This document shows, in pieces, positions 1-21,578 of a DNA stretch of 33,714 nt. Each line of letters opens with the position of its first letter. Positions within the stretch are counted from its first letter, which is position 1. The notes under the pieces are model-generated. The model was not told where the DNA came from. It made no database searches and worked only from the letters and a program-made list of their open reading frames with translations. This stretch comes from a virus: IMG/VR virus record IMGVR_UViG_3300017969_004035, positions 1 through 33,714 of that record; one strand, 5' to 3'. Position numbers and translations under genes: made by a program.

Positions 1-3000
1 AACAGTTTTCCAACTCATATATTTTATAGTCGTTATTACAATCTCCACATATCGGGTCTGAACAACCTGAGCTCATAATTTCTGTTGGATATACGTATGT
101 TGACGTTGAGCCTGACGCAGTGTCTCCTGTTAATATCGCGAAGGTATAACAAAGTGAATTATATAAGAAAGTGTCACCAATAGAAACTGAAGTGGTTCCT
201 GAAACCGAAGCAACTATATCAGGTAAGTTTAAATTTTCACAACATCCTGTCGCAATATAATAATCAAAATCACCACTTGTTCCTCCTCCACTTATTGGGT
301 TATCTTCACAACTTTCAAGAGCAACTTCATTGGCGACGTCAAGAGCAAAATCATCAAAACCTATATTATAAACATAATTAGATGATGTCGCAATTAGTTC
401 TAACTGATTAAAGTTTGGTTGTGTACCCGCTAGTCCTGCGGAATCAGTTACACCAACGGCCTGTATTTTATACTGAATATTTGTTCCATTAAAGGTACCC
501 ATACTTAACTGTGAAGCCACCTGAGCCGCGTTAAATGTGGTGTTACCAACGTTACATGGTAAGATTGTGTCGTCAATAGTAGTATTTGTTATTACTATTA
601 TATTTTTTTCTGCATTAGGGTTTGAACCCGCACCTGTTAAAATATCTGTCGCCTTTATCAACCCATACGCCAACATACCATTACCTCCCAATGGTGATGC
701 TGAGTTAATTGCGGACACAAAATTACTGTAATTATCTGTTAATCCTATTATTGGTATTACTCCTGTACCTAAAGCATCACAACTGTTAAAGAATATCGCA
801 CTTATTTGTGTTGTGCCACTATTCATATTACCCTGTAAAGTTGTCGCAATATCTATAACACCGTCTTTAATAACATTAAAGTCGTCACTAAGATTAAATG
901 TTCCTGCTATCATTACAACTATGTCCTGTTCAGGACAATCTTCGACAATACATTCACAATAATTTTCCAAACATATATCTGATATAAAGTCACCTATTCC
1001 TACTGTTAAGTTTGTAGTTATTGCACCTGAGCCCGCCCAAGTTGAGTCATACCACCAACACGTATTATTAAATGGTAATCCACTTTGCTCTGATGGTAAT
1101 GTCCCACCTGAATAAATTACACTAATACTTTCACTATTAATACAACAATTTCTTAAGTATATTCTACTCAAATTGGAGCAATCACATCTTGGGTCTGTAC
1201 AAGTAGTGATTTCTGTGGGATTAATTGTATAGAGTGAACTACCACTAAAAGTGTCTCCTGTTAAAGATTCAATAGTATAACAAAGACCATTAAATATAAA
1301 AGTATCAACGTTATATGTTGGTGTAGTTCCAGTATCTAATGCAACGACAATATCTGTTAAACCTAAACTACCACAACAGGGTGACGCTTGGTAGTAATTA
1401 TAACTGTCTCCAGTTAATGGATTTTCATCACATATATTTGCAGTAATTCCTGTTGCAATAAAATCAACAAAATCAGAAAAGACTGCTGCATTATATTGAA
1501 AATTCTCACCTGAAGAAAGAGTATTTAATTGTGCGTTATTACCATTTACAAGATTTACTGTACTAATTTTTATTTCTACGTAATCTGTGACGCTACCTAA
1601 AGGAGATGCGTATAATCCAGCCTTCATTTGATTACACAATTGTGTAGTGCTTTGTGTTGGGCACCCTGCGGTCCCTCCATTAACAAAATCACTAATACCT
1701 CCGTCAGTTATTAAAATTATAGATTTTGTTGCATCTAAGTTATCAACTGCTAATAAATCATACGCATTAGATATAGCATTAGAGCAATATGTGAATCCCC
1801 CATCATCATTAGCGTTATTAATTGCTGCCACAAAGTCATTGTAATTACTTGTTAACCCAATAACTAAATCAGTATTATCACAATCCGACCATTTTATTGC
1901 AGATAACCTGACTTCACCCAATTGCATTAAACCTTGTACGCCATTGGCTATTTCTATAACCCCTTGTTTTAGTATTGCCCATTCAGAACTGTTAATACTA
2001 CCTGATTGGTCCATCAATATAACAATATCTTGTGGATTACAAGCACTTAAACATACATCACAATCTGCGAATTCAGTAATTGTAGTTTCCACATATATCG
2101 GCTCGTCTGTCTCAACTTCATCTATAAATGTCATACATTGTACTGAACCGTCAGTAAGTTCAACGCTATATACACTTCTAAGTGTGGGTGTAAGCCCTGT
2201 CGAATATAATACATCGGGTAATAAACACTCTGTTTGTGCTGAAAGTGTGTATGAAGTAGCGTTACTCTGCCACCATAACCAAACCGCAACTTCAGTTGCT
2301 CCTGCACCTCCCGCAACCGCGGTTTCTACCATCCACGGGGCATCTGCATAATCATTATCTAAACCAAAATGATATAAATTTGTAGCCAACAATGAATTAC
2401 TACTTACGATTGTAGTTCCAGTGTTCATCATCGGTTGTAAATCACATACAGTAAAAATTTGTGTAGGTACTGTATAATCAGTGCCATTATAATCTTGTAT
2501 TGCCGTACCACCAACATATGGTACTAGTACTGAATTGTCAAAAGGAGTACACGCACTAAATCTTTGAGCTAATGGAAAATGTATATCGGTACATCCGGTA
2601 CAAGTCGAGTAATCACCTGTAACTGATTCTATAGTTAGTGGGTTTGTTATATCTCCCTCACAGTCTCTATATAAACCCTCATAACGATAGCACGATTTTT
2701 CTCCATTAGTTGCTTCAACAAAATAAAATTGTCCCTCTGTATAAGTAACACTGTTATCGTAGAAATAACTACATCCTGAAAAATATGTAAAACATTCAGG
2801 ATAGTCATTTAACACAATATTGCCTTCGGGTGTCGAGTATTCTCCTAACGCATTTAAGATGTCAGTGGTAGTTATTATACCATCATTATTATAATCCAAA
2901 AATGGGACGTTTTCAGGTGTTGGCGTTAAAACGTGATATAGTAAAGCATTAAATAATATGGTGGTACTTGCGCTATATACTATTCCATTCTCAGTATTAG

Positions 3001-5137
3001 CAGTAGTCATTAATGGTAATAAATCACAAACAGTATATATTTCTAGTGGCACCTCATATGTTATAGGACATAAATTATCCTCCCATGTAATTTGAACGTC
3101 ACTACCCGTGTAAAGTGAACCATTAATGAAAACAGTTACTGATTGAACACATGAATACTGTAATACTTGTGTTGGAAGTATATCTAATACTTGAGTAGTT
3201 ATATTAGGTACTCCAGTATTTTCATTTAAATTACATATTTGTATAATAAGAGTGTAGGTGACTGATGTTGAATTATTTGTTATTGTTACTCCACTACAAG
3301 CGTCACCACCAGGAGGAGGTGCTTGATATATTGTAGTATCGTACTGATACGGATAAGGTATGTCATCGTTTTCAAATGAATCATCTCTACAATCACAGAA
3401 CAAATGATAATCAGGACAACCACTAGGAGTAGGTGTCGGCGTATGTGTTGGAGTCGGTGTGAGACTAACAGGAACACTGATAGACGGTGTAACAGTAGGT
3501 GTAGTTGTTAATGTTGGTGTCAGAGAAGGGCTTGGGTCAGGACATTGAGGACAGTATGGTCTTAATTTTTCACATGATTCTTCAAAGGTATCTACAAAAT
3601 CTGTTGCAGATTCTGTGGTAGAATATCCAACATATGTATAACAATTTCCACTGTATTCTATAGCGTTGTTAGTATGTCCAGGAATCCAACCATCACTTAA
3701 ATTAACACCTAAATATATTTCAGGTATTTCACTTAATGGAGTGTTGTTTGAATAAAAACAGCAAGGATAAAACACACCAACTCTATAATTATTACAATTA
3801 CAACTCACACATACATTACTTATGATGTTACCAACCTCAATTATTGCCGTTGTTCCTCCACTATACAAGTTATTAGGTGGATTAAATAAACTGTAGCAAT
3901 TTCCATCTAAGTAGAATCCGTCATTTGCACTATACGTATATGAATCAGGTATTGCCACATATACATCAGGTAAGAAACTATCACCATTTAAGGTACAACA
4001 ATGTTCTGCCTTATAAAAATCAAATGAAACACCGTCAAATGGATTTTCATCACATCCAACATCCGCTACTTGTTGAGCCACTGTGGTTTCCCAATCATTA
4101 AATGTAGCCGCTGAAAAATAATTTTCTTGACCTGAAGCAATATTAATTAATTGACCTGGACTACCCGAGCTTATATTTACGGCGATAATCTTAATGGAGT
4201 CTAATGTTCCATAAAAACCTAGTTTCATTTGTAAGGCCATTTGTGTGGCACTTATACCACTACAAAATGTATTGTTATAATCAGCTAAACCTCCGTCAGT
4301 GATTAATATAATTGTTTTGTCTGAATTTGGGTTTGCATTTGAACCTCCTAACTGTGAATAAGCGGTGTCAAGGGCACTTGTCGCGTAAGTACCTCCCCCT
4401 CCATAACTTGCGTTATTGACTGCGTTTACAAAACTTGTGTGATTAGTAGTTAAATTACTTATTAGTTCGACACCTCCACACTCACCCCATTTATACGCAC
4501 TTAACTGTATTAATCCTACGTCCATTTGAGATTGTAACTGATTAGCAATCTCCACAACACCATTTTTCATTAATGTGAAATTAGGTGAAGTCACACTACC
4601 TGATTCATCTAAAAGTATTACAATATCTTGAGCATCACAAGTATCTATACATGAATCACAATCAGTAAATCCACTAACACCAATAACACCTGATGTTGCG
4701 ATAGATGTATATGTGTCATAATAGTAAAAACAGTGAAAATTACCATAATTATCTTCAAATAAAATACTATCTGAACCCGAATAAGGACTAGCTATTGGGT
4801 ACTTAATAACAACTATATCTCCACTACCGTCAGTTAAAGATGGCCTAGTATCATCTCCACACTGTCTATATTCATTAATTTGTGGTGCAACTACTGTATT
4901 ACCAAAACTTGTTTCACATCCTTCACAATCATCAAACTCAACAAAAGTACATTCGTCTGAGTTATACTCTTCTAAAACTTCATCCGTGTTTTGTTCTATA
5001 TAATAACATCCACTTTCAATACCTCCACATTCTATGAACCAAACTTCACCAACATTTAAAGTGGTTGCACCTGTAAAGTTAACCCGATATCTTAGGTTTT
5101 TATTGCAACTTTGTAATATGAATTTTGTAATACTCAT
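1..5137 (-). CDS. Giant modular tail-tip/adhesin-like protein with three vWA domains (3' end beyond window)
   Basis: The frame from ATG at 5137 stays open to the left edge, at least 1712 codons, with no stop inside the window. Three von Willebrand A domains are visible at about residues 168-362, 1034-1236 and 1400-1610. The first two have intact metal-site motifs: DESGS (D177, S179, S181) with TDGG at 280-283, and DQSGS (D1043, S1045, S1047) with TDGG at 1144-1147. The third is degenerate. Each vWA is preceded by a Cys cluster ending in QD and followed by a C(D/E)xNP motif, a CC pair and a 'CYT' module. A Pro-Thr linker lies near residues 530-575 and an EF-hand-like loop at 748-759. The start overlaps the stop of the upstream gene (ATGA), so it belongs to the baseplate operon. 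No signal peptide is seen. vWA domains usually bind ligands in a metal-dependent way, so a host-receptor-binding or tail-tip role is inferred. No exact homologue is recognised. Confidence 0.85.
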   Translation of the reverse strand, partial: MSITKFILQSCNKNLRYRVNFTGATTLNVGEVWFIECGGIESGCYYIEQNTDEVLEEYNSDECTFVEFDDCEGCETSFGNTVVAPQINEYRQCGDDTRPSLTDGSGDIVVIKYPIASPYSGSDSILFEDNYGNFHCFYYYDTYTSIATSGVIGVSGFTDCDSCIDTCDAQDIVILLDESGSVTSPNFTLMKNGVVEIANQLQSQMDVGLIQLSAYKWGECGGVELISNLTTNHTSFVNAVNNASYGGGGTYATSALDTAYSQLGGSNANPNSDKTIILITDGGLADYNNTFCSGISATQMALQMKLGFYGTLDSIKIIAVNISSGSPGQLINIASGQENYFSAATFNDWETTVAQQVADVGCDENPFDGVSFDFYKAEHCCTLNGDSFLPDVYVAIPDSYTYSANDGFYLDGNCYSLFNPPNNLYSGGTTAIIEVGNIISNVCVSCNCNNYRVGVFYPCCFYSNNTPLSEIPEIYLGVNLSDGWIPGHTNNAIEYSGNCYTYVGYSTTESATDFVDTFEESCEKLRPYCPQCPDPSPSLTPTLTTTPTVTPSISVPVSLTPTPTHTPTPTPSGCPDYHLFCDCRDDSFENDDIPYPYQYDTTIYQAPPPGGDACSGVTITNNSTSVTYTLIIQICNLNENTGVPNITTQVLDILPTQVLQYSCVQSVTVFINGSLYTGSDVQITWEDNLCPITYEVPLEIYTVCDLLPLMTTANTENGIVYSASTTILFNALLYHVLTPTPENVPFLDYNNDGIITTTDILNALGEYSTPEGNIVLNDYPECFTYFSGCSYFYDNSVTYTEGQFYFVEATNGEKSCYRYEGLYRDCEGDITNPLTIESVTGDYSTCTGCTDIHFPLAQRFSACTPFDNSVLVPYVGGTAIQDYNGTDYTVPTQIFTVCDLQPMMNTGTTIVSSNSLLATNLYHFGLDNDYADAPWMVETAVAGGAGATEVAVWLWWQSNATSYTLSAQTECLLPDVLYSTGLTPTLRSVYSVELTDGSVQCMTFIDEVETDEPIYVETTITEFADCDVCLSACNPQDIVILMDQSGSINSSEWAILKQGVIEIANGVQGLMQLGEVRLSAIKWSDCDNTDLVIGLTSNYNDFVAAINNANDDGGFTYCSNAISNAYDLLAVDNLDATKSIILITDGGISDFVNGGTAGCPTQSTTQLCNQMKAGLYASPLGSVTDYVEIKISTVNLVNGNNAQLNTLSSGENFQYNAAVFSDFVDFIATGITANICDENPLTGDSYNYYQASPCCGSLGLTDIVVALDTGTTPTYNVDTFIFNGLCYTIESLTGDTFSGSSLYTINPTEITTCTDPRCDCSNLSRIYLRNCCINSESISVIYSGGTLPSEQSGLPFNNTCWWYDSTWAGSGAITTNLTVGIGDFISDICLENYCECIVEDCPEQDIVVMIAGTFNLSDDFNVIKDGVIDIATTLQGNMNSGTTQISAIFFNSCDALGTGVIPIIGLTDNYSNFVSAINSASPLGGNGMLAYGLIKATDILTGAGSNPNAEKNIIVITNTTIDDTILPCNVGNTTFNAAQVASQLSMGTFNGTNIQYKIQAVGVTDSAGLAGTQPNFNQLELIATSSNYVYNIGFDDFALDVANEVALESCEDNPISGGGTSGDFDYYIATGCCENLNLPDIVASVSGTTSVSIGDTFLYNSLCYTFAILTGDTASGSTSTYVYPTEIMSSGCSDPICGDCNNDYKIYELENC
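308..942 (-). other. vWA-like domain 3 of the giant protein (degenerate MIDAS)
   Basis: The fold signature is kept (DIVVMIAGTFN; IVITNTTIDD; ending CEDNP), with the same spacing of about 106 residues between the two metal loops. The metal residues are replaced: D to A1411, S to T1413, S to N1415, and TDGG becomes TNTT at 1517-1520. The threonine loop is also lost (GGNGMLAYG). Confidence 0.75.
1430..2038 (-). other. vWA domain 2 of the giant protein (intact MIDAS)
   Basis: It has the same layout as domain 1: DIVILMDQSGS, then GGFTYCSNAI at the threonine loop, then ILITDGG 101 residues after the first Asp. It ends at CDENPLTGDS. It is more similar to domain 1 in its metal motifs than to domain 3. 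Confidence 0.85.
3415..3545 (-). repeat. Pro-Thr linker repeat DNA in the giant gene
   Basis: On the minus strand this stretch reads as imperfect repeats of ACACC(A/G/T)ACxCC type and encodes a Pro/Thr/Ser linker (for example TPTPTHTPTPTPS) between the first vWA region and the following Cys-rich modules. The same kind of repeat DNA occurs three times in the 628-residue gene at 10062-11948. Confidence 0.8.
4052..4636 (-). other. vWA domain 1 of the giant protein (intact MIDAS)
   Basis: The segment starts with DIVILLDESGS, the first strand and DxSxS metal-site loop. It has GGGGTYATSAL at the threonine loop and ILITDGG at the third loop. It ends at CDENP. All the usual MIDAS elements are present, so metal binding is plausible. 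Confidence 0.85.
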
Positions 5138-8085
5138 GCCGTACAATTAATATTTATGTTGACACCTGCATTTATTTGCAAATTTTTATTAGTAAAATCA
5201 TTATTACATCCAATATTTGATACTGTGATTGTACTTCCGTTTATACTATAGTCCAATCCGTCCTGAGATAAAGTACTTAGTGAACTTTCAACTGCAGTTA
5301 ACCATTGTTGACTTGATGGGTAATCTCCTCCACCATAACCTGTATAAAATAAGTCCTTTCTTAACAAAGTACCACTTAATCTAATATCAACGTACCACAT
5401 ACTAGTAAGAGTGTTCAACGTACAATCACTAACATTATAACCTTCACCCGCAACCGCAGTATTAATACTATTTATTAAGGTACTCTGTGGATTTGTTAAC
5501 CCGATATCACAACTAAGTGTTTGAGTAACACAGTCGGCACCTAATAACTGTCCTGTAAATGTGCATGGTATACAAGGTATTGGAACTAACTCACACCCTC
5601 TCTGTCTTCTCCAAACTACTTTCTGTCTTTGGAGTACATTATTTTCCATTTTTTGTCCTCCCATCCAAATGGTAGATGCGGGAATCATTTGTTCAATAAG
5701 TTTCATCCAATAGTCACCAATACCATTTGTGAAATCAATCATTTTTTGGTAAGTGTACTTGTTAGATGGTATTCCTACATTCTCTTCTGACTGCATATAT
5801 TTCCAATACACAGATTGTAGTGTGGGGTAACCACCTCCCTTTCCGTCAGTAATAGTTTGTCGATTTCTAACATTAATCATATTACGATAGAAGGTTTGCG
5901 TAAACTCAAAGAAGGTTTTTTCTTTTGGTTTTGGATTAATAACTGTCCAATCTGTACCTTCAGGGTAAGGGTATGGTGAAGTTAGACCTGTAGACGGGAA
6001 AGGGTAATTATATTTTTTTGACATATCCCATATGTCATATATTATTCCCTGACCCATGTTTAATCCCAAGTCAATATTTTTTCTATTTAATACTAATCTT
6101 TCGTCTTCAACAATATAATATGCGTTGTACCCTGCTTGTGTATTTCTTCTAAGTCCTGTCTCATTATCAGTCCATGATTTGTTATTATCTTTTATAGATG
6201 TAATACCAAATCCCAAATCCATATATGGGAAATGTCTAAATCTATTAAAGTATTTTTCTCCATAAGTGAAAGGCTCTAATGTAGTCTGAACATCAGGGTT
6301 TTGTCCTGTAAATACTGAATTAGTTGTATCTATTCTTACGGGTGCTCTGTGTTCAGGTGTTTGTTCATACCAACCCGAACCTTTTTCAAAGAATATATCT
6401 TCTGTTGGTGTCATAGATGTTGGGTATCCACTATTATCAACTGGATAATCTCCTCTTGTAGTATCTACGGGAGTTATTGATAGCTCAGTGGTAAATCCTG
6501 TATATTGTACACCCTCAAAACTAAATGTAACATTGGGGTCTAATACCGGTGTTTCAGTAGTTTTAGTTCCCCCTGTTATTGAAGCGTATTCTTCATTAAA
6601 TCTATCAATATTAATAGGTCCATCAGCAAGATATATTGTCTCATTAAACTCAATTAACGCCTCAGGGGCTCCAATCATTCTCATTAAAGCCTCTATAGAC
6701 CTTCTTGTACCTTTAGATTTAAATAGGTATGCAGAATTTAAAATTAAATTTCTATAGTATTGGTAGTCTAATTCTGTAGGTGTCTTATCCCTTGTTTGAC
6801 CAGGATAAATGGATTGGTTTTTAGTTCCAAATATACTCTGTAAAAAATTATCGTTTGTAATTAGAGATATATTAGTATCCCAACCTAATGTTTGTGCTAA
6901 ATTTTGTAGAAGTTGTGATGGTATATCATTTTTAACTGTATAATTAACAGAATTCATATATGCCAAAGCATCGATAAACTTTTTAGTTTCATCAAAACTT
7001 CTACCATATAGTTGTAATACTTTTTCTACTTTTTTGTCCTGAGTATCAAAGTCTTTAAAAGCGCCTGTTGTTAAAAATCTTGAGATTAAGTTTGCTCTGA
7101 ATTCGTCAATCTCATCGGCTATTCTATTTAAACTTTCAATATATGCCTCAAATTTTCCTGTTCGGATATCTAAGTTCCAAAACCCGTCTAATGGCCAAGT
7201 AACTTTCTGCCTAGTTTTATAAAAAGTACCATCATCACTTTCCCTCATAAACTCAAAGTCTGCAGTGTATTTAGGTGAGACAAGTCTATTTAATAAAAAA
7301 TCTTCAACTTCATCAAATGGGTCTTTAAATGCCTTTTCAGTTTCAAATTTATTAGGTTTTAACAATATACTTTTTGTTGAGTTAACTTCCCCGCTAAATG
7401 GATTACCTTCAACAACTACAGTCACCGTACCGGCAGAAAGTCTAGGTGAGGCATCAAAATCAACAAATTTATACTCAGTTTCCAAATCTTGGAAAAACAT
7501 AGCATATTTTAAGAAGTTTTTGGTTAAGTTTCTTAATGGACTAACCTCCAATGGTCTAACTGATATGTTACGGTCAGCATTTTCAGAATAATCAATATCA
7601 AAATTATTTTTAAATCTAGTAACATCTAAGTCAAAAGTAGTTAAACCTTCAACATCATCATAAGATATATTATATGCGGTATACCCTGTAGTTAATCCAT
7701 AATAAAATTTATCTATCTGAATAGAAGCAGGAAAATAATTTATTATCTTAGTTATTGACGATGAAAATCTTTTTCTTATCGAGCCATACAGTGTAAAATT
7801 TGTTACCTTGGATATGTCAAAGTTTGGGTATACCCTAAAGTTTTTAGCCATAATAAGTTTAGACTCTTCTAAACTATTAAAATCTAAATCGTTAAGAGAT
7901 ATTGGTGCCGAAAACACTCCCGTATCAAAAGTTCTATTAACTTTTTCAACAACGTTAGTGGTAAACTCAAAATTTCCTTGCGTAAGACCACCACCATCAA
8001 CCAGCTGAAATCCTACGAGTTCATCTGAAAAAGTCCCCCTAGCGTTAGGGGGAGCAGGTGGGTATCTATATTTATTGTCGGCCAT
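5134..8085 (-). CDS. Baseplate structural protein with tail-protein-I-like core and Cys-rich C-terminal tail
   Basis: The product has 983 residues. At about residues 350-475 it has a helical segment with LAQTLGWDTN followed by YLFKSKGTRRSIEALMRMIG. This resembles the 'hRrKGT...alr..l..lG' signature of phage tail protein I (P2 gpI), the family that sits with gp25- and gp6-type proteins in baseplate wedges. Near residues 797-825 is an EQMIPASTIWMGG...RQKVVW segment. Cysteines are absent from the first 830 residues. Eight then occur in the last 153 (C831, C838, C841, C852, C859, C888 and two near the end), so the tail looks like an appended, possibly disulfide-bonded module. The start overlaps the stop of the upstream gene (TAATG), and its own TGA overlaps the ATG of the giant gene. 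A gp7/gpI-like wedge role is inferred from this motif and gene order; the specific family is uncertain. Confidence 0.7.
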   Translation of the reverse strand: MADNKYRYPPAPPNARGTFSDELVGFQLVDGGGLTQGNFEFTTNVVEKVNRTFDTGVFSAPISLNDLDFNSLEESKLIMAKNFRVYPNFDISKVTNFTLYGSIRKRFSSSITKIINYFPASIQIDKFYYGLTTGYTAYNISYDDVEGLTTFDLDVTRFKNNFDIDYSENADRNISVRPLEVSPLRNLTKNFLKYAMFFQDLETEYKFVDFDASPRLSAGTVTVVVEGNPFSGEVNSTKSILLKPNKFETEKAFKDPFDEVEDFLLNRLVSPKYTADFEFMRESDDGTFYKTRQKVTWPLDGFWNLDIRTGKFEAYIESLNRIADEIDEFRANLISRFLTTGAFKDFDTQDKKVEKVLQLYGRSFDETKKFIDALAYMNSVNYTVKNDIPSQLLQNLAQTLGWDTNISLITNDNFLQSIFGTKNQSIYPGQTRDKTPTELDYQYYRNLILNSAYLFKSKGTRRSIEALMRMIGAPEALIEFNETIYLADGPINIDRFNEEYASITGGTKTTETPVLDPNVTFSFEGVQYTGFTTELSITPVDTTRGDYPVDNSGYPTSMTPTEDIFFEKGSGWYEQTPEHRAPVRIDTTNSVFTGQNPDVQTTLEPFTYGEKYFNRFRHFPYMDLGFGITSIKDNNKSWTDNETGLRRNTQAGYNAYYIVEDERLVLNRKNIDLGLNMGQGIIYDIWDMSKKYNYPFPSTGLTSPYPYPEGTDWTVINPKPKEKTFFEFTQTFYRNMINVRNRQTITDGKGGGYPTLQSVYWKYMQSEENVGIPSNKYTYQKMIDFTNGIGDYWMKLIEQMIPASTIWMGGQKMENNVLQRQKVVWRRQRGCELVPIPCIPCTFTGQLLGADCVTQTLSCDIGLTNPQSTLINSINTAVAGEGYNVSDCTLNTLTSMWYVDIRLSGTLLRKDLFYTGYGGGDYPSSQQWLTAVESSLSTLSQDGLDYSINGSTITVSNIGCNNDFTNKNLQINAGVNININCTA

Positions 8086-8993
8086 TATCCTGTGATGTTT
8101 GTAAAGTTTTTACTAAAGTCTATATTACCACCTCGGTCTTGTCGTACCTCGTATAGTAGATTATTAAACTCATCACGAATTTCATATAAGTTGTATTGCT
8201 TGTAAATGTTAAGGTTACTATCATATAATGTGTATACACCGTCTTCAATAGACTTAGTCTGATTACCGTAAAGAGCAATTGCTAATGTATCAATATCATG
8301 TTCAGCCATTTCTATCTCTACACTTATCGGATTAAAAAATGTATTTGTTATGATAATATTTTGATTTGGTTGACCAATGAATGGTGTTGCGTTTGGCTTA
8401 TTAGAAGGGGCACTAGCCGGTGATACGGTACAAAATAATAAATCACTACCGTTTTCAACATACCTATATCTAATCGATTTTTGGGATGAGTTTGTTAGGT
8501 TGGTAACAACGGGTTCACAATAAAAAGAAGATGTTATAATTCTATAAAAATTAGTTATTTTACTTCCGTCATCGTTTAAGTATTCCACTCTATGACCTAC
8601 TAATCCTTGATTTACAAATCTATTTCTAAACTGTGAAGGTACTTGATTTAAATCTACAATTATACCTTTAACGTTTGGTAACGCGGACAGTACCCCACAA
8701 TCAGTAATTGTGGTTCTTATCTCCACAGGTCTTATATAAAGAGTGTAAATACCTATCTCATTAAATTCATCAGCAGGTAATTTTAGATTATAAAGTCCCC
8801 CCAATATTTCTACGTTAGCATTTCCTCCTGTATCACCATTATGAAAATATGGTGTTAAAATTTCTGAGGCGTTTAATTTTTTTAACTCAAAATCGTTAGT
8901 AACGTCTCTTGAGGGTGTGTAATTCAAGATTATCTCCACATCTTCGGGAGACATATCTGATGGTCTTGTTGTTCCGTATGTTCCTAACGCCAT
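8085..8993 (-). CDS. Unknown baseplate/tail-associated protein, 302 aa
   Basis: I do not recognise this family. The protein looks soluble and beta-rich, with no signal peptide or membrane segment. The N-terminus (ALGTYGTTRPSDMSPEDVEI) is followed by a region with EIGIYTLYIRPVEI. There are three cysteines (near 98, 158 and 188). The C-terminal third (TLYDSNLNIYKQYNLYEIRDEFNN) is rich in Asn and Tyr. The ATG lies one base after the TAA of the preceding gene, and its own stop overlaps the next ATG. It is therefore translated together with the baseplate genes on both sides and is most likely a structural component of the tail tip. Confidence 0.6.
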   Translation of the reverse strand: MALGTYGTTRPSDMSPEDVEIILNYTPSRDVTNDFELKKLNASEILTPYFHNGDTGGNANVEILGGLYNLKLPADEFNEIGIYTLYIRPVEIRTTITDCGVLSALPNVKGIIVDLNQVPSQFRNRFVNQGLVGHRVEYLNDDGSKITNFYRIITSSFYCEPVVTNLTNSSQKSIRYRYVENGSDLLFCTVSPASAPSNKPNATPFIGQPNQNIIITNTFFNPISVEIEMAEHDIDTLAIALYGNQTKSIEDGVYTLYDSNLNIYKQYNLYEIRDEFNNLLYEVRQDRGGNIDFSKNFTNITG

Positions 8994-8994
8994 T

Positions 8995-10065
8995 TTATTC
9001 TTGTTCTTTTATTTTAAAGAAACCGTATCCGTAAGATACTAAGTCTCCTATGTTATCAACTTCTCCGAGTCTCTGTATTCCTTCGAAAGCAGAAATTTTA
9101 CCTCTATCAATAAATATTTGGGATTGTATTTCTGGCGACGATACAACACCAAATAATACTTCTTCTTTGGTAATTGGTTCTGCAACCATCATATCCGAAG
9201 TTAAACCACTAGATTCCATAACAAACGTGGTTTTTTTGTTGGGGTAATCAAAATAGTTAACCCCTTGTATTGTATAGGCTGTATATGCATCGGTCATTTC
9301 TGTGACTCTTCCGTAGTTTTCTCCGTTCTTAGTAACAACTACCGATGTATCATATTTTGTAGGTCCGTATAGTTTTAAATCCGTAAGTTTAGATGAAGTA
9401 TATCCCGAAATACTAAATGACTCATTACTTGTTTGTCCTGATATAGTATTGTTAGAGTCTCCTGTAAAAATATAATTAGCGTTAAATGAAACATTAGCCC
9501 AATTTCCTGATTGTGGTGTAAATGTCACTTCATTAGGTGCATTATTTATTTCCGCAGGTACGTTTGGTATGGTGACTTTCTTGTCTATATTGGTGACTCC
9601 CCATGGATTTTTTTGTGTTAGTTTAATAGTGTATGTCGCATTCGATGGGGCGTATTCATGTTCCATATAATCAGGAAAAACTGCAGTAAATGGTTCTACA
9701 GTACCGTCACCCCAATCAATTTCATAAGTAGATAATTTTAAAAACTTTTTAAACTCATCTGATGTGTTATATACTCTAATATTATATTCATTTGTGGTGT
9801 CTCCACTAACTGAAAAGTTACTTACCACGTCCTTCTGAAGTATAAATCCGTCAAAACCACTATAAAAACCAATATCATCAAATGTTTGATTAAATACTAT
9901 AGGTATTGTAAGACCTGTAAGTAAACTACTTCCACCTGTACCACCACTTAAAACCGCAGTCATTGCCGAATAGACGCCAAAAGTATTTCCGCTATAGGTT
10001 TTTTGGAAAATGTCACTTTTGAGTGATTCGGGAGAGATTTTTATAAAATATTTATCTTCGTTCAC
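8995..10065 (-). CDS. Tail-tip structural protein with PKD-like domain, 356 aa (GTG start)
   Basis: Residues about 82-170 fit a PKD-type beta-sandwich. STYEIDWGDGT (112-122) matches the WxWGDG core of PKD domains. It is followed by a H-x-Y element (EHEYAPSNATYTIKL) and a closing strand DKKVTIP. PKD and similar Ig-fold domains are common in extracellular surface proteins and in exposed phage proteins, where they often act as spacers or weak binding modules. The start is GTG at 10065, overlapping the TGA of the upstream gene (GTGA), which suggests translational coupling. The rest of the protein (170-356) is unrecognised. No cysteine is present. Confidence 0.65.
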   Translation of the reverse strand: MNEDKYFIKISPESLKSDIFQKTYSGNTFGVYSAMTAVLSGGTGGSSLLTGLTIPIVFNQTFDDIGFYSGFDGFILQKDVVSNFSVSGDTTNEYNIRVYNTSDEFKKFLKLSTYEIDWGDGTVEPFTAVFPDYMEHEYAPSNATYTIKLTQKNPWGVTNIDKKVTIPNVPAEINNAPNEVTFTPQSGNWANVSFNANYIFTGDSNNTISGQTSNESFSISGYTSSKLTDLKLYGPTKYDTSVVVTKNGENYGRVTEMTDAYTAYTIQGVNYFDYPNKKTTFVMESSGLTSDMMVAEPITKEEVLFGVVSSPEIQSQIFIDRGKISAFEGIQRLGEVDNIGDLVSYGYGFFKIKEQE

Positions 10066-11948
10066 GATGGATTTACATATTCATACCATTTTATGGGTGA
10101 ACCTTCTCCGATTCTTTGCCCTGTTACAACATCTTTAATACTATATTCATAATTATTAATATCTAAACTTACTTCATAATAAAAATCCTTACTTTTTTCA
10201 AAGTTAAATTTATTAGAAAAGTTAGCCTGTGTTCTGTTCATGAATCTAGTGAATTGACCCGTTTTAGCATTAAAGAATTTTGCCCCCATATATAACTTAT
10301 CAAGTTTTATATAATTTGGGTCTTTTAACCAATAAATAAAGAACCCTTCTTTATCACCAATATAATCCAAAACAAAATTTGGCAGTTTAATTTGTGCGTT
10401 GGCAGGTGCGATACTGAGTGTTGGTGTTGCACCTGAACCTATATCTTTGGGATTTGGGTTAACATTACCCTCATCTGATGGTGGTAAGTAGCTAGAACTA
10501 GGTGTAGGTGTTGGTGTTGGGTCAGGTATATTACAGTTATATAACTGTGCAACTTTATCACCTCCACCAAATTGATTAGTTAAAACTAACAAATAATCAT
10601 TGTACTGAAAATTTGGTTCGTTACTGTTGAATATCTTACCGTACCACCCACCTGAAGGTACAGGTCCATAACCATATAATTTAGTACCAACATTTAACGC
10701 ACCATAATATGTTACTGTTAAATTAGGACTCGTAGCCTCACATGCTGCATCATAACCAATAGGTGCGGGTGTTCTTATATACATAGTATACTCTGGTAGT
10801 GGTGTTGGTGTAGGTGTTGGTGTTCGTGATGGTGTTGGTGTAATACATCCGCAGTCATTATTAACAAAACCATTGTAACTATCAATCCAATCCTCAATTG
10901 GTGGGTCGGGAATTTGAACCGAAGTATTAGCGTTTGTTATTTCATAACAGACTCCATCAAAATTTTTAGAGTATCCATATGCTGGCCAGTCAAATGCATT
11001 GTTCCACAAACTAACTGATATGTATTTTGTTAGTACCTGACTATTACAATTTTCAAACGTAACCTCATACGAATTAAAATTTAAAGGCATATCTATATTT
11101 ATACTTTGTGTAGGTGATGGTGTTACATTCGGTGTGGGTAATGGTAATTTGCTCTGTGATGGTGTAGGTATAATTGTAACTTCGTCTGTCGATTTTTTAT
11201 TAACTTCCTCTAATGTTTCATAAGCCCTTTTAGCTGACTCACTCAATTCGTATTTTAATTGCTCGTGATATCCTAAATTTTTTATGTTAATTTTGGTTTC
11301 TTTTTCATTATGTTTTTTACTGTTTTCAAGAGTTATTCTTGTCACAGCATCTTTATAAATTTTAGTAGATTCATTTATTGTATATCTTAATCCACTAGAA
11401 AAACCTCCTTCAGGTATAACTTCAGGTATTAGAGGTCCCTGAACAAACCCCCCACTAGTACTTATAGGTGTAGTGCTAGACAACCTTGTTTTACCTTGTT
11501 GTGTAGGAATTATTAAAGTTAAATATATTTGTTGTGTTTCAGTATCAGTCGTATCGTATAAGTCTAACTTAAAAAAACTTCTTTTAAAGGAGTTTGCATT
11601 ATAATAAATTTCCGCCTCATTAAAACACGTACCAGTAAAATTAGGATTATCAGTAAAAACATAATCACTAACCCATAAATCCTGACTACCACCATTTGTG
11701 GTTTCAACATCTATAGACCTATCAAAAAATAAAAACTCATAATTTAATGAAGTTTTGTTTTCATTTTCATACTTTCTATGGGCATACCTTGTAACTTCAA
11801 AGTCTTCTATTGGGTTAATAACTTTTTCTATTGTCTCGTCCTCAAATTTATCTATCAAGTCATCCCTACCTAAAAGGTCAGTTTTTATCTCGATAGGTAT
11901 ATTAAGGTACCTATTACCAGGCTGTATGTTAAATCTATATTTATTCAC
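10062..11948 (-). CDS. Modular baseplate/tail protein with three Pro-Thr linkers, 628 aa (GTG start)
   Basis: The N-terminal part (1-255) and C-terminal part (about 520-628) look like one structural protein interrupted by inserted modules. The interruption contains three Pro-Thr linkers at about residues 260-281, 369-385 and 476-486. Between linkers 1 and 2 is a roughly 85-residue domain with a GVCYEI motif and a closing CGC. Between linkers 2 and 3 is a roughly 90-residue domain with YNCN near its end. The GxCY motif also recurs in the giant protein at the left end. A lysine- and glutamate-rich helical stretch lies at 200-255. The start is GTG at 11948, overlapping the upstream stop by 8 bases. 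The function is unknown; operon position says baseplate or tail fibre attachment. Confidence 0.65.
   Translation of the reverse strand: MNKYRFNIQPGNRYLNIPIEIKTDLLGRDDLIDKFEDETIEKVINPIEDFEVTRYAHRKYENENKTSLNYEFLFFDRSIDVETTNGGSQDLWVSDYVFTDNPNFTGTCFNEAEIYYNANSFKRSFFKLDLYDTTDTETQQIYLTLIIPTQQGKTRLSSTTPISTSGGFVQGPLIPEVIPEGGFSSGLRYTINESTKIYKDAVTRITLENSKKHNEKETKINIKNLGYHEQLKYELSESAKRAYETLEEVNKKSTDEVTIIPTPSQSKLPLPTPNVTPSPTQSINIDMPLNFNSYEVTFENCNSQVLTKYISVSLWNNAFDWPAYGYSKNFDGVCYEITNANTSVQIPDPPIEDWIDSYNGFVNNDCGCITPTPSRTPTPTPTPLPEYTMYIRTPAPIGYDAACEATSPNLTVTYYGALNVGTKLYGYGPVPSGGWYGKIFNSNEPNFQYNDYLLVLTNQFGGGDKVAQLYNCNIPDPTPTPTPSSSYLPPSDEGNVNPNPKDIGSGATPTLSIAPANAQIKLPNFVLDYIGDKEGFFIYWLKDPNYIKLDKLYMGAKFFNAKTGQFTRFMNRTQANFSNKFNFEKSKDFYYEVSLDINNYEYSIKDVVTGQRIGEGSPIKWYEYVNPS
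10794..10844 (-). repeat. Pro-Thr linker repeat DNA (middle linker of the 628-aa gene)
   Basis: This is a run of near-perfect hexamer units (plus strand GGTGTT/GGTGTA), encoding TPTPSRTPTPTPTPLP on the minus strand. Related copies lie at about 10491-10523 and 11106-11171 in the same gene and at 3415-3545. Confidence 0.85.
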
Positions 11949-16600: not shown

Positions 16601-19184
16601 CTGTAATCCCATTACCGTCAAATTGGTTTCCTTCTGGAAACATTTGAAAGTTTGGGTCTTCAACACTAGAAGGTTCATTGAAGAAAAATAACTGTCCTTT
16701 TTCCATGGTTTCTCCTTCGTCTAAAACCATTATAAACGCATTGTCTAACCATGTGGTAACAGGGGCGTCAAAACCAAGCTGGTCGTTATGTAGTTTAGTC
16801 CGTATTCTTGTCGTTGTGGCCCTGTTTAGATAATAACCGTCTATAACTTGAGGTCTAGGTACTGAAAAATTACCTGTATCATATTTTTTAGCCACAGCTT
16901 CACTATCAAAATTAGATAAAATACCTGTATCTCCGTAAAATAGAGCTCTACGATTTAAAAGGTTTAATGCCTGTGCCCATGTGGGTTCTGAACCCAACAT
17001 CCACCTAACTCGTTTATTTGCCCCAAATAGCTGTTCAACAGTCGTAGGTTCATCTAAAACCGGATAAACCGGCGATTTATACCACTGAACTTGGTCCCTT
17101 CTGTTAAAGTTGTTTGCAACACTCCAACCCGCACATGCATCATCGTCACCCGCGCCTAAATCTTTAAGTAAATCAGTATACATACCATTTTTACTGTATT
17201 GGTCAAGACCTGACCTTATTAATTGACCTTGTAATGCCCTAACACCTAAGGTAGCGTCTGCACATCCTGTGGTATTATCAGCCTGTGCTTCATTCGCTGG
17301 AAATGCGTTATTATATAGTTCTTTATATGACGCATCAATAATAGGTCCATAGTTTTCTTCATCGGCGTAAGACTCTAACTGACCCGCAGTGTCACTGTCT
17401 TCTTCTTGTGTCTTTTTTGTTTCACATGCACAAGCCTCACAATCAGGATAACTTAACATTGGAAAGTTTATCGTGCTAAACGGACTTTCTTTAGGTGGTG
17501 GTGTTATTTCCTTTCTTACGCAATCCTCTTTACTTCTTCGTCTTGAAAAAAGTGCTATTATTAAACATATACCATATAAAACAAAATTAATTATAGTACT
17601 TATAACGATTATTAACGCCCTGAAGATTGGCCATATCAATGTAACTACGTGAGCTATAGCTAATAAGATAATTAAAGGTATCGTTAAAATACTAATTATA
17701 AAATTAAATAAAAATATAAGTGCACTACCGTTTCTTTGTGCATCAACTACAGGTAATGGGTTGTGTTCACTCTGACAAGTTTTGTCATTAATTTCTTTAA
17801 TACCTAAGTGTTTTATTCTATTCCTACCCCATTTGAATCTATCTAAATGTGACGCTATCGTATAAACTTTATTGTAATTAAATTGATAGAAACTATCCTC
17901 ACAGTTTATCGCGGCATTTTTATCATAATACTCATCCCAATCAAGTGAAAACGCATAAGATTTATTTCTATCTTCTTCGGATGGTATATCGTCAGTGGTA
18001 GTTCCTGACCATCCATGTTCTCTAATATTTGGTATTAAGTAATCGGCTCTTATAATATCGTTTTTAAGTCCTGCCTCATTTTGGTATTTAATTCTAAATC
18101 TATATTTACCTTTCGTCGGTATTCCTACTGTCGGGTCCAATGATATAATTTGTTCTCCAAACTCATCAGTTATTATGTAGTCAAGATTCATAGGAAGGTC
18201 TACCATCCATGTACCATTATCATCAATTACATTTCCCCCATCTTCTAAAAAGTATTGTTCTAAAATAGGTTGTCCCTCAGCATCAACATCAATAGTTTGC
18301 CTGATTGCCAATATCTGACCAGGTCCAGCAACAACGTCACATAATTTACCGATATCATTTTTAGGTTTGCAATTACCTTTTAGGTAATCATCTTCGGTGC
18401 TTGAGAATACTGAACCCATAAAAATAGATTGTGGTGAGATTTCGATACCTAATTCCCTCAAGTCAAAATCTGACCTTGTAATACCAACATCACACAATTC
18501 GTTTTCACCCCAAAATGGTGAGACTTCAATTTCTCTAACACTATTAACTATCTGAGGTAAGCTATTTAAGTCCTCACTTGCCTTAAATTGTTGTCCGTTA
18601 AATTGGTTTGGTACACCCATACCCATTCTTATTAAATCGGCAGGTCTCAATGAAAACTGACCCATATTAGATAGGTCTAAATCCATTACTAATTTTTGTT
18701 GACCTAATGGTACGCCAACAATCATAAAGTCACCACTATCGTTAGTCTTTACAGTGTATTTATAATACTTTTCATATACTTGTAATACTTCTTTTCTTGT
18801 TAACACATCTTCTCTTGATGGGAATGTCCCGGTGGGTGTGTGTCCCCCGTACTCTTTTTCATATGGTAATAGATTATATCTATATCCGTCATCATTCCTT
18901 ACGTTTATATTTTTATAAGGATATAAGGTAGAAATAATAGGGTCATTAGCGTCGATATTATCTAATGGTACAAAAACAGATATAGTTGCGTTTGGAACTC
19001 CGAAACCTCCGTTAGCTATAACTCTACCAACCACTATACCATAATCCGCACAAAATCTATCATATAAATCTTCCTGTCTTAATTTTAAGGATAATATTTC
19101 CAAAAAATCAAAATCTTGTTCTACATTAAGTCTGACTTCTTTGTCGACCCCTACTTCTGTTCTAAATCTATATGATTTTGGCAT
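13656..19184 (-). CDS. Very large baseplate-region protein with internal hydrophobic membrane-like segment, 1842 aa
   Basis: It is the first large gene after gp6, the place of gp7 in T4, though nearly twice the length of T4 gp7. Residues about 48-170 look like a carboxypeptidase-regulatory-type beta domain (VVGRVIANGGFGVPNATISV ... DSGDFMIVGVPLGQQKLVMD). Residues 487-547 are almost entirely hydrophobic, enough for two or three transmembrane helices. They are followed by a basic patch (RRRSKED) and a Cys cluster (CEACACETKK, 582-591). The remaining 1200 residues are Asn-, Trp- and Tyr-rich and appear beta-structured, with no recognised domain. There is no N-terminal signal peptide. The leader contains an 18-bp palindrome and no Shine-Dalgarno sequence. 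A structural role in the wedge or tail tip is inferred; a membrane-contacting function is only a possibility. Confidence 0.65.
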   Translation of the reverse strand: MPKSYRFRTEVGVDKEVRLNVEQDFDFLEILSLKLRQEDLYDRFCADYGIVVGRVIANGGFGVPNATISVFVPLDNIDANDPIISTLYPYKNINVRNDDGYRYNLLPYEKEYGGHTPTGTFPSREDVLTRKEVLQVYEKYYKYTVKTNDSGDFMIVGVPLGQQKLVMDLDLSNMGQFSLRPADLIRMGMGVPNQFNGQQFKASEDLNSLPQIVNSVREIEVSPFWGENELCDVGITRSDFDLRELGIEISPQSIFMGSVFSSTEDDYLKGNCKPKNDIGKLCDVVAGPGQILAIRQTIDVDAEGQPILEQYFLEDGGNVIDDNGTWMVDLPMNLDYIITDEFGEQIISLDPTVGIPTKGKYRFRIKYQNEAGLKNDIIRADYLIPNIREHGWSGTTTDDIPSEEDRNKSYAFSLDWDEYYDKNAAINCEDSFYQFNYNKVYTIASHLDRFKWGRNRIKHLGIKEINDKTCQSEHNPLPVVDAQRNGSALIFLFNFIISILTIPLIILLAIAHVVTLIWPIFRALIIVISTIINFVLYGICLIIALFSRRRSKEDCVRKEITPPPKESPFSTINFPMLSYPDCEACACETKKTQEEDSDTAGQLESYADEENYGPIIDASYKELYNNAFPANEAQADNTTGCADATLGVRALQGQLIRSGLDQYSKNGMYTDLLKDLGAGDDDACAGWSVANNFNRRDQVQWYKSPVYPVLDEPTTVEQLFGANKRVRWMLGSEPTWAQALNLLNRRALFYGDTGILSNFDSEAVAKKYDTGNFSVPRPQVIDGYYLNRATTTRIRTKLHNDQLGFDAPVTTWLDNAFIMVLDEGETMEKGQLFFFNEPSSVEDPNFQMFPEGNQFDGNGITGTTVGHSDSSYIPVEFKAMDSNGGEVTKTAYLYNTASTMDMKFKSGVEYFQCIKAITPWEIWNYTTQLSTVSELPVNVYTNGEADGTANVLTGVLWRYFSKYTNYYGQWEKEAQGRYLRVSDKNGVNSDEEVTGNNSQAGGFYDDKFGNYRIIVAVRGVDPNMPRQKITYDLSKLFGQSLDSAANPNNWNGTYTVTGDYFMNVPIQNNWNGMNVGNWRSNYKGERCAIAHYRLWNQSNGPDDNQNPQGTSYYRRRLYWHDCDNDGEVYNYEGDVAGYNFNNKLWHKPFLFRPDPNLWQAWDNYTPNKYISMDKQLRDSPDFKDWMGNLPANEFGNTSGENCPNGSYQQMWFSGDIGGSSEYKSWPKTGINPNFQTNIEGIGFQYCYPNRLNSNEARLKRRLGGNGNREVITVSPMYLPKRYENNNSRGVPKTIMKNSEKILFRSDRIPTSDRWDEPEFSFATLHKYPHFRRYGLHLNLKQQLFLSDDDGTVIDIDGNMVPTDASGAYLDSIEDTTCETAQLLSTFNCDSMVPLGCYSGSGENFGVEEPCDIPRDLDQGIEGNERLNQGCYVFVIKKPLRSLRADIEMLFEYRTRMRFMFAVCQGVIGEAFQNNWINGTLYMPTFQKQTLYNSDNEVQRYRYCGDPQQYFEKLRYQGPIYFNNQTNSFYYRSTPFNDNTNQFVGQEPSRDYYYGQNDKNIWFPTTIMELGPRDEFTKEIAFSPDFEGYIIDTIKSTSYQDPSDVVNLFLLSRLVNTSFLEQLTNTGDASIGQLFSRAGILTDDGWDSSPLNRLFDARVDGDFAQMAAINSEYGVVPFLDGNYCDDTTTVQDDRIGIWFSSNTIDRRILQNGVTTFGTEPTGPTNYFGYTKTQIVPYYMWNIKDNGLFGTEFNNWNTEYIFASKYQGEDFFNGSSPYMKPNYGYGRGHIFNRSLNDVSLDSYPINNDNVNNFKTGAPFYFYYGLKRGKSAMNRYIQKYIFNLP

Positions 19185-19254: not shown

Positions 19255-21093
19255 TTATGAGAACTCTACGTTCTTAAGTTGTTTGATTCTCACTTTTATA
19301 TCTTTCTCAGGAAATCTTATTTGATATATTTGATTTGGTTGAGCGAAAATAGTATCGTCTATTAACTCAATTTGTTTGGTATTATTATCAACGTATCTTT
19401 GTGAGGTCTGAGAAGACGAATATTGCCCTCCTGTTTTGTTGAATACTTTTAAGTCTGCCAGTGTACTAACACCTGGTATGTCTTGTATGATTCTCCTAAT
19501 GTCAGATATATTTACATTCTTCCCTAATAGGTTTGTCATAGGTGATAAATAAGACTCCACACTATTAACTATATTAGTGACGACCTGTCCTTGGTTTTCT
19601 GTGGATGTCATAGCCACACTAAATTCAAACTCTAAGTCTATTACGTTCGCACTTCGTATAGAAATATAATCGTTTATCATACGGTAATTAGAAAGATAAT
19701 TCGCTATATTATCTTTTAATGTGTTTGATACGTTACTTGTTAACTTTCTGTTTGAGTCATAAGATAGTATTTCTATTTTTATCTTATTATCTTCCTCAAC
19801 TATGGCGGCCTTAGCTGGTGCACCAAATCTACTTGGCATCGTTCTTATTAGTGAGTTATAATCATTTACAGTTACTGCCCTTTTTTGTGCTGCAAAATTA
19901 AATGTAACCATGTTTCTAACTTCTTCGGTTGTTGGTAGGTCTCCTCCCCCTATTGCCGCGGTTACATTATTACACCTTAAACTTTGAAGTACATTTTGAT
20001 TAATGTTTTGTGAAGGTCCGTTAACCGCAAAATTAACATTTCCTATTTGATTAATTGTATTAACTCCTATGTTAGATGTTGTTCCCCCACCTACTCTATA
20101 CTTCACAAATAAAGTTGTATTTGCCTTAACTGTTTTACCTAAAGCAATGTTATTTTGATAGTCTTGTAACCTAAGTGGGATGCCTGTTCTTGCAAACTCA
20201 GCGAGTTGGTCGTCCGCGGTTACTGTAGCACTACCGAATTGTACTCTACAGTATCCTTCAGGTGTGTATTCCGATATAAATCTATTTTCAGTTTCTATAT
20301 ATCTTCCAACTTTAATACCTGGATTATCAGATGCTTTACTTGGGTCTTCAACAAAAATTGTATTTTCGGCTAACGCGTCAACTTCGTACCATTTATCAGG
20401 TGAAGTAATAAACTCATCATATGTCGGTGGACTAGAATATGATGTCCCGTCTTTTTGTATTAATGAAGTAATACTTATTACATTTTTTTCGGGTAAAAAG
20501 AACTCATAGAATGGTTTTACGTCATTGTTATTAATAACTTTTTTAAATACTTTTGTAGTACCATTAACAACAACTTCTCTTTTTGTTATAGTGTAGTTAA
20601 TTACTCTATTATTAGAATCAAAATTAGGTATTTTAGTTCTATTAGGGAAGCCTTTGTTATTATATTGGGTACTAAAATCAATATCGTCAGGATTTTCAAA
20701 TATTTGTCCTGCGCCTATGAATTGTGAACCCGCTCTTATAATACCTAAGTATCTACTATCTTCTTGGTCCCCAAAAGCAGGTACTGTAATAGAAACATCA
20801 ACTAATGCTATAGAGGGACGATTACCTGGTATTTTTAATCCATAAGTTCTTGCAATATTATATATTGAGGATTTTTGTTGAGCATACTGTAATACCGTTT
20901 CTTGTATACTTCTATCAATATGGTAATGTAGGTTATCACCAATCGCAGCGTTTAAATCTAAAAATACTGAATAAACGGACGCGTCATTAAAGTTATCTAT
21001 TAACTCAGGATAATATTGACGCGTAAAATTAATCAGGTCCTGTCTTAGTCCTTCAAAGTCTCTATCTGTATATGAAATTTTACGATTAGCCAT
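19255..21093 (-). CDS. 6: Baseplate wedge protein gp6-like (baseplate J family)
   Basis: The product has 612 residues, close to T4 gp6 (660). The N-terminus (ISYTDRDFEGLRQDLINFTR, then NDASVYSVFLDLNAAIGDNL) is typical of gp6-like wedge proteins. The middle includes a Gly-rich VGGGTTSNIGVNTIN segment and AAQKRAVTVNDYNSLI, the conserved 'R.vT..Dy..l' of baseplate-J-type proteins. The C-terminal third carries the expected alpha/beta domain (SANVIDLEFEFSVAM, ISDIRRIIQDIPGVSTL). In T4-like baseplates two copies of gp6 per wedge form the inner ring together with gp25 and gp53. It begins 5 bases after the gp25 stop, so it is cotranscribed with it. Identification is firm at the family level. Confidence 0.9.
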   Translation of the reverse strand: MANRKISYTDRDFEGLRQDLINFTRQYYPELIDNFNDASVYSVFLDLNAAIGDNLHYHIDRSIQETVLQYAQQKSSIYNIARTYGLKIPGNRPSIALVDVSITVPAFGDQEDSRYLGIIRAGSQFIGAGQIFENPDDIDFSTQYNNKGFPNRTKIPNFDSNNRVINYTITKREVVVNGTTKVFKKVINNNDVKPFYEFFLPEKNVISITSLIQKDGTSYSSPPTYDEFITSPDKWYEVDALAENTIFVEDPSKASDNPGIKVGRYIETENRFISEYTPEGYCRVQFGSATVTADDQLAEFARTGIPLRLQDYQNNIALGKTVKANTTLFVKYRVGGGTTSNIGVNTINQIGNVNFAVNGPSQNINQNVLQSLRCNNVTAAIGGGDLPTTEEVRNMVTFNFAAQKRAVTVNDYNSLIRTMPSRFGAPAKAAIVEEDNKIKIEILSYDSNRKLTSNVSNTLKDNIANYLSNYRMINDYISIRSANVIDLEFEFSVAMTSTENQGQVVTNIVNSVESYLSPMTNLLGKNVNISDIRRIIQDIPGVSTLADLKVFNKTGGQYSSSQTSQRYVDNNTKQIELIDDTIFAQPNQIYQIRFPEKDIKVRIKQLKNVEFS

Positions 21094-21098
21094 TTACC

Positions 21099-21578
21099 TT
21101 AAATATTAATAATAATGAAATCTCTAGTATCAAATGTACTATCTTTAATAGAATAGTCTATTTTTACTTTTGCAGTATATTCTTCAACACCTTCACCGGC
21201 GGTTCTAAATATATCAAACATTTCATAAGTGTTTTGTTGGTCTTCAATGTTTAAATTACCAATAGGGCTTTTGTCTTCATCAGTATATGGTCGTATGGTA
21301 ATATCGTTTATCTGTAAGTTGGGTATGTACTTGTCACAAGCAATCTGTATATCTGATTTTATTGCGTCAAATGTTGGTCCATCCATAGGTTCAAAAATAA
21401 ATTCATATATTCTTGTTCCAAAATCAGGTAAATAATATCTACTCCCTTTACGTGTTAGAATTAAATGTAGTAAATCCGCCCTTATTTCTTCAGGTACATT
21501 TTCAGTTAAGTCTAAGTAAGTACCATCAGCACTATCCCTAAAAGGAAAATTTACTCCATATGTTTTCTTTATTGCCAT
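21099..21578 (-). CDS. 25: Baseplate wedge protein gp25-like
   Basis: The product has 159 residues, against 132 in T4. The gp25/GpW-type lysozyme-like fold signature is visible: ADLLHLILTRKGSRYYLPDFG (34-54) followed by YEFIFEPMDG (58-67). The N-terminal YGVNFPFRDSADG is the usual lead-in. The family links the tail tube/sheath end to the wedge and is needed for sheath contraction. It is the first gene of the baseplate operon, 31 bases below the terminator that ends the nrdA transcript. The leader is very AT-rich, with TATAAAAA and TATATTTA elements that could be promoter boxes, but neither is a clean match. The C-terminal extension (about 120-159) is beta-like. Confidence 0.9.
   Translation of the reverse strand: MAIKKTYGVNFPFRDSADGTYLDLTENVPEEIRADLLHLILTRKGSRYYLPDFGTRIYEFIFEPMDGPTFDAIKSDIQIACDKYIPNLQINDITIRPYTDEDKSPIGNLNIEDQQNTYEMFDIFRTAGEGVEEYTAKVKIDYSIKDSTFDTRDFIIINI

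Follow-up and report, generated by a model that had tools for sequence, protein, structure and literature searches.

A giant modular, hypervariable vWA protein encoded behind the baseplate genes of a T4-like phage is a likely tail adhesin

For large Bacteroidota phages, little is known of the receptors or of the proteins that bind them. Von Willebrand A (vWA) domains in phage tail proteins already have precedents. In the Bacillus thuringiensis phage 0305phi8-36, a large protein of the myovirus baseplate/fibre region (gp164) carries a central vWA domain that is exchanged for another domain in relatives (PMC2147016), and gp183 of phage Rpl1 has an N-terminal similarity to a vWF A domain, detected by HHpred only (PMC9960720). 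The domains associated with tail fibres of the eCIS eBAP4 group also include vWA (PMC12923769), and the A-domain fold stands at the filament end in pilus-tip adhesins such as Mfa5 of Porphyromonas gingivalis, PilB of Streptococcus sanguinis, and RrgA. Finally, SprB of Flavobacterium johnsoniae (PF13573), a substratum adhesin (PMC9870892), is a giant modular surface protein.

The protein described here shares something with each of these systems. It is encoded in a window of 33,714 bases, which is the whole stretch of DNA that was analysed and the entire IMG/VR record, a metagenomic contig of a large aquatic virus. Like gp164, it places vWA in a large protein of the baseplate region, although the two are likened by description, and gp164 comes from a Bacillus phage, has one reported vWA domain, and is not reported to contain SprB repeats or Cys modules. 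With Rpl1 gp183 it shares the A-domain similarity in a phage protein. With the eCIS fibres it shares the character of a contractile-tail binding protein with swapped adhesion modules, vWA included, but these belong to bacterial extracellular injection systems and have a different fibre scaffold; likewise, Mfa5, PilB, and RrgA are parts of bacterial pili, not phage tails. SprB repeats recur in relatives of the window protein, but, unlike SprB, this family is phage-encoded and baseplate-linked, contains vWA and Cys modules in addition, and has no T9SS sorting domain above cut-off. Several vWA-Cys-Cys units and SprB repeats in one hypervariable phage protein were not found together in the literature searched, which covered few subscription journals. 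An earlier note on this DNA had called the architecture uncommon, which is fair, but gp164 and the eCIS fibres mean that it is not unique.

The vWA/Cys-rich gene occupies an open frame at 2..5137 on the minus strand (1,712 codons), with its ATG at 5135-5137 and no stop before the contig end, in agreement with the unterminated frame described in the earlier note. By our own estimate, the chance of an open frame of that length at 35% GC is ~1e-55. A frameshift had been raised as a reason to doubt that the frame is one gene; we take it as one intact gene because it is collinear with single frames of 2,899 (open), 2,941, and 2,340 aa in three related loci (L002, L003, and L005, respectively). Many contigs, the window among them, break within the adhesin gene, which accounts for the missing stop, and the record is probably a piece of a larger genome. 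Only the 5′ part of the gene is therefore present. Its ATG overlaps the stop of the upstream 983-aa gene as ATGA.

Pfam VWA (PF00092) matches three stretches of the window protein (4.7e-38, 131.6 bits against a cut-off of 23.8), and the positions predicted from the letters alone (near residues 168-362, 1034-1236, and 1400-1610) proved correct, the domains being located at 167-362, 1033-1240, and 1401-1612. Mapped to the DNA, vWA1 spans residues 164-363 (4049..4648), vWA2 spans residues 1031-1242 (1412..2047), and vWA3 spans residues 1402-1617 (287..934), all on the minus strand. The Rossmann-like A-domain fold expected of such domains was returned by AlphaFold for all three, with best Z scores of 21.3, 23.4, and 24.1, respectively, from models built on shallow alignments (mean pLDDT 58.7 and 70.9). 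The best fold matches were collagen VI alpha3 N2 for vWA2 (Z 23.4) and collagen VI alpha3 N5 for vWA3 (Z 24.1), and the Bacteroidota pilus-tip protein Mfa5 was matched as well (Z 22.5). Among solved structures, the closest in sequence are A domains of collagen VI, mussel PTMP1, integrin I domains, anthrax toxin receptors, and vWF A3; judged by these similarities, the window domains resemble extracellular adhesion A domains. Two further matches overlapping the vWA1 region were rejected as weak: the PHROG ‘HNH endonuclease’ (phrog_1314, E 4e-4) and Pfam CoV_NSP15_M, the latter also under its cut-off.

Iterating an HMM that was seeded with modules of this protein identified five Cys-rich modules of ~70 aa, bearing out the earlier impression that the vWA domains sit among repeated modules of this kind, and the repeated unit is vWA-Cys-Cys. 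Residues 375-449 (3791..4015, 3e-15) and 457-532 (3542..3769, 7e-8) follow vWA1, residues 1249-1320 (1178..1393, 2e-19) and 1327-1396 (950..1159, 1e-19) follow vWA2, and residues 1627-1700 (38..259, 9e-19) follow vWA3, all on the minus strand. The modules are probably disulphide-bonded. A Thr-Pro-rich linker is apparent in the sequence at residues 533-574 (3416..3541, minus strand). By eye, we also noticed a single dockerin/EF-hand-like motif, DYNNDGIITTTDILNALG, at residues 748-765 (2843-2896, minus strand), which Pfam did not report at the threshold used; a similar motif occurs in L009.

The metal sites of the vWA domains differ among copies. In an alignment of 17 vWA domains from the adhesin locus, the MIDAS (DxSxS, T, D) is intact as D-S-S-T-D in window vWA1 (DESGS...T...D) and vWA2 (DQSGS...T...D), whereas vWA3 has lost all five residues (A-T-N-G-N), so the earlier claim of intact metal sites holds for the first two domains and fails for the third. 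An intact MIDAS is common, but not universal, in the vWA family. In S. sanguinis PilB, ligand binding is independent of the MIDAS (PMC8179133). Among the relatives, intact sites were counted in three of three domains in L002, one of three in L003, one of two in L005, and the single domain of each of L042, L044, L045, and L046; therefore, every full-length vWA protein retains at least one intact MIDAS (L047 ends at the contig edge, and the available part of L009 contains only a degenerate copy). Several first copies in relatives, like window vWA3, have lost the MIDAS, and this counts, together with the PilB result, against a metal-dependent role. In a tree of the domains, the copies group mostly by position, so the triplication probably took place before these phages diverged; support is weak on several branches, and two of the degenerate first copies sit on long ones. 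The same comparison indicates that the third copy lost its MIDAS on the branch common to the window and L003. As a separate observation made by eye, a domain starting ‘VFYDGT...IR.WY...DYIVI’ recurs at residues ~1720-2040 of the L002 protein and from residues ~570 and ~1975 of the L042 protein, and it may be a further degenerate A-domain-like module.

All genes of recognised function in the window lie on the minus strand. They encode gp25-like (21099..21578; PHROG 261, 3.8e-16) and gp6-like (19255..21093; PHROG 219, 2.3e-21) baseplate wedge proteins, NrdA/NrdB, a DnaB-type helicase, a UvsX-like recombinase, and a single-strand-binding protein, and this set identifies a T4-like myovirus. The gene order is gp25, gp6, large baseplate-region proteins, and then the adhesin, which directly follows a conserved 302-aa tail-operon protein (8085..8993, minus strand; 65-100% identity in relatives) and the 983-aa baseplate-region protein (5134..8085, minus strand). 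Further upstream, a 628-aa protein (10062-11948, minus strand) contains Thr-Pro linkers and is matched only partly in most relatives with the gene, and could therefore be a second variable protein of the tail. The host is probably a member of the Bacteroidota, as favoured by a Flavobacterium phage relative, the SprB repeats, and the ATP-cone of NrdB. The only named relatives of the gp6-like protein are Flavobacterium phage immuto and Microcystis phage Mel-JY01 (~27% identity), and because the latter infects Microcystis, the host phylum is not certain. An ATP-cone (PF03477, 5e-19) is present at the N-terminus of NrdB (23368-24648, minus strand) but not seen in NrdA (21642-23348); NrdB proteins with this arrangement were described from Leeuwenhoekiella and occur mainly in Flavobacteriales (PMC5794259). 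Short-peptide-pattern scans of binned genomes found no relative of the 302-aa protein or of the vWA profile in genome contigs.

The adhesin itself had no match by direct tblastn in 50,697 phage records, nor in a single-protein pattern scan of viral contigs. The adjacent 983-aa protein, used as the query, anchored 35 related viral loci, and where the contig was long enough, a Cys-rich protein of 767 to 2,941 aa was encoded after it (apparently divided between two genes in L023). A separate scan with the vWA alignment yielded nine loci, five of them on contigs outside the 35-locus set; all nine lie directly behind the 302/~980-aa pair and encode proteins of up to 3,842 aa, so the architecture is kept in relatives. 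Within the unbiased 35-locus set, vWA was found only in near relatives, in which the 983-aa gene is at least 84% identical, and since many relatives are without vWA at this locus, the domain is not essential to the tail. The adhesin diverges or is replaced faster than its neighbours. Between the window and L002, identity is 97% for the 302-aa protein and 94% for the 983-aa protein, but 45%, over 81% of its length, for the adhesin; in L004, the neighbours are 96% and 86% identical and the adhesin has no match. In L007, L014, L023, and L027, the match is limited to the N-terminal ~70 residues, and the conserved Cys-rich region at residues 5-76 (4910..5125, minus strand) is the only part in common. 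Conserved neighbours beside a divergent or replaced adhesin are the pattern of receptor-binding proteins. No RVT_1 indicative of a diversity-generating retroelement was detected in 10 related records, none of which is known to be complete.

The missing 3′ part can be viewed through the relatives, and because the window has no 3′ end, what is said of its stalk and C-terminus comes from them. SprB repeats (PF13573), known from the gliding adhesin of Bacteroidota, score above the Pfam cut-off in L002, L003, L011, L014, L023, L046, and others, and the family is absent from all 14 control genomes; Pfam finds none in the window fragment, which stops before the corresponding region. The relatives' adhesins also contain Thr-Pro linkers, and the full-length ones carry a C-terminal domain that profile comparison shows to be homologous to the last ~110 aa of the 983-aa protein (hhalign Prob 95.5, E 1.5e-8), which makes this domain the best candidate for virion attachment. 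For a T9SS C-terminal sorting domain, Por_Secre_tail reached just 15-17 bits against a cut-off of 27, mid-protein, in L005, L011, and L042.

Taken together, these observations make it likely that the frame encodes the N-terminal part of a very large, modular, and hypervariable baseplate/tail adhesin of a T4-like myovirus with a probable Bacteroidota host, in which the vWA domains are metal-dependent binding heads. The earlier note had proposed a tail-tip receptor-binding protein; the position in the tail operon and the receptor-binding-protein-like evolution support this, while the terms ‘tail-tip’ and ‘receptor-binding’ themselves rest on position and divergence. As a virion component, the protein would present its vWA domains, with two Cys-rich modules after each, as the likely binding heads, and at least one MIDAS per protein would be retained for metal-dependent contact with a host-surface ligand. 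By homology, the missing 3′ part would consist of Thr-Pro linkers and of SprB-type Ig-like repeats forming an extended stalk, with one more C-terminal domain in some relatives, and the ~110-aa domain common to the adjacent baseplate-region protein would likely serve for virion attachment or oligomerisation. The vWA heads, shown on a stalk fixed to the baseplate, would then grip the host surface. By synteny, the locus marks one family of putative Bacteroidota-phage attachment proteins with members of up to 3,842 aa, and the MIDAS offers a simple handle for testing how they bind. Beside well-conserved neighbouring genes, the vWA modules of these phages also form a natural series, from present through degenerate to missing.

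It is doubtful that the vWA domains instead act within the virion, binding another virion part in the manner of collagen VI or vWF A domains, for example a collagen-like (Gly-X-Y) fibre encoded downstream, and helping to assemble a tail fibre network. Collagen VI does supply the solved A domains nearest in sequence, and collagen-like genes do lie downstream in the vWA phages L003, L005, and L046, but the vWA phages G003 (L042, 104,710 bases) and G011 (L044, 60,030 bases) have an intact MIDAS and no collagen match, while L015, L018, and L023 carry collagen-like genes and are without vWA. Binding to the phage's own collagen was rejected because, by co-occurrence in relatives, the presence of collagen-like genes does not track vWA; moreover, divergence or wholesale swapping of the adhesin gene is expected of host-facing parts. 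Adhesion to environmental material near hosts (algal polysaccharide, particles, or extracellular matrix), rather than to a host receptor, also appears unlikely. Hoc-type Ig domains are thought to stick phage to mucus, and both vWA and SprB-type modules serve generally in surface adhesion, but the position behind gp25/gp6 and the wholesale replacement among near-identical phages better fit host specificity. An improbable, more far-reaching version of the host-directed adhesin is that the attachment protein was assembled from the adhesion repertoire of the host phylum (SprB repeats plus metal-dependent A domains), that MIDAS-dependent contacts let the virion engage or mimic the gliding/T9SS surface machinery, and that changes of host are accompanied by duplication, inactivation, and replacement of vWA copies. 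Virions rarely contain giant Cys-rich proteins, which would suit a non-virion protein made in infection and displayed or released by the infected cell, but this is very unlikely given the ATGA overlap with a baseplate-region gene, the C-terminal domain common to the adhesins and the 983-aa product, and the absence in relatives of a T9SS C-terminal domain above cut-off.

Two observations concern the genes that follow the adhesin in relatives. Long collagen-like Gly-X-Y proteins are encoded within a few genes after it in L018 (15777-19382), L005 (21943-22941), and L023 (20796-22949). In L015, the adhesin gene and the fibre-like gene after it are separated by a GlcNAc-type glycosyltransferase (PF11397, 2.8e-67; 16607-17848), which might modify the Thr-Pro-rich tail proteins.
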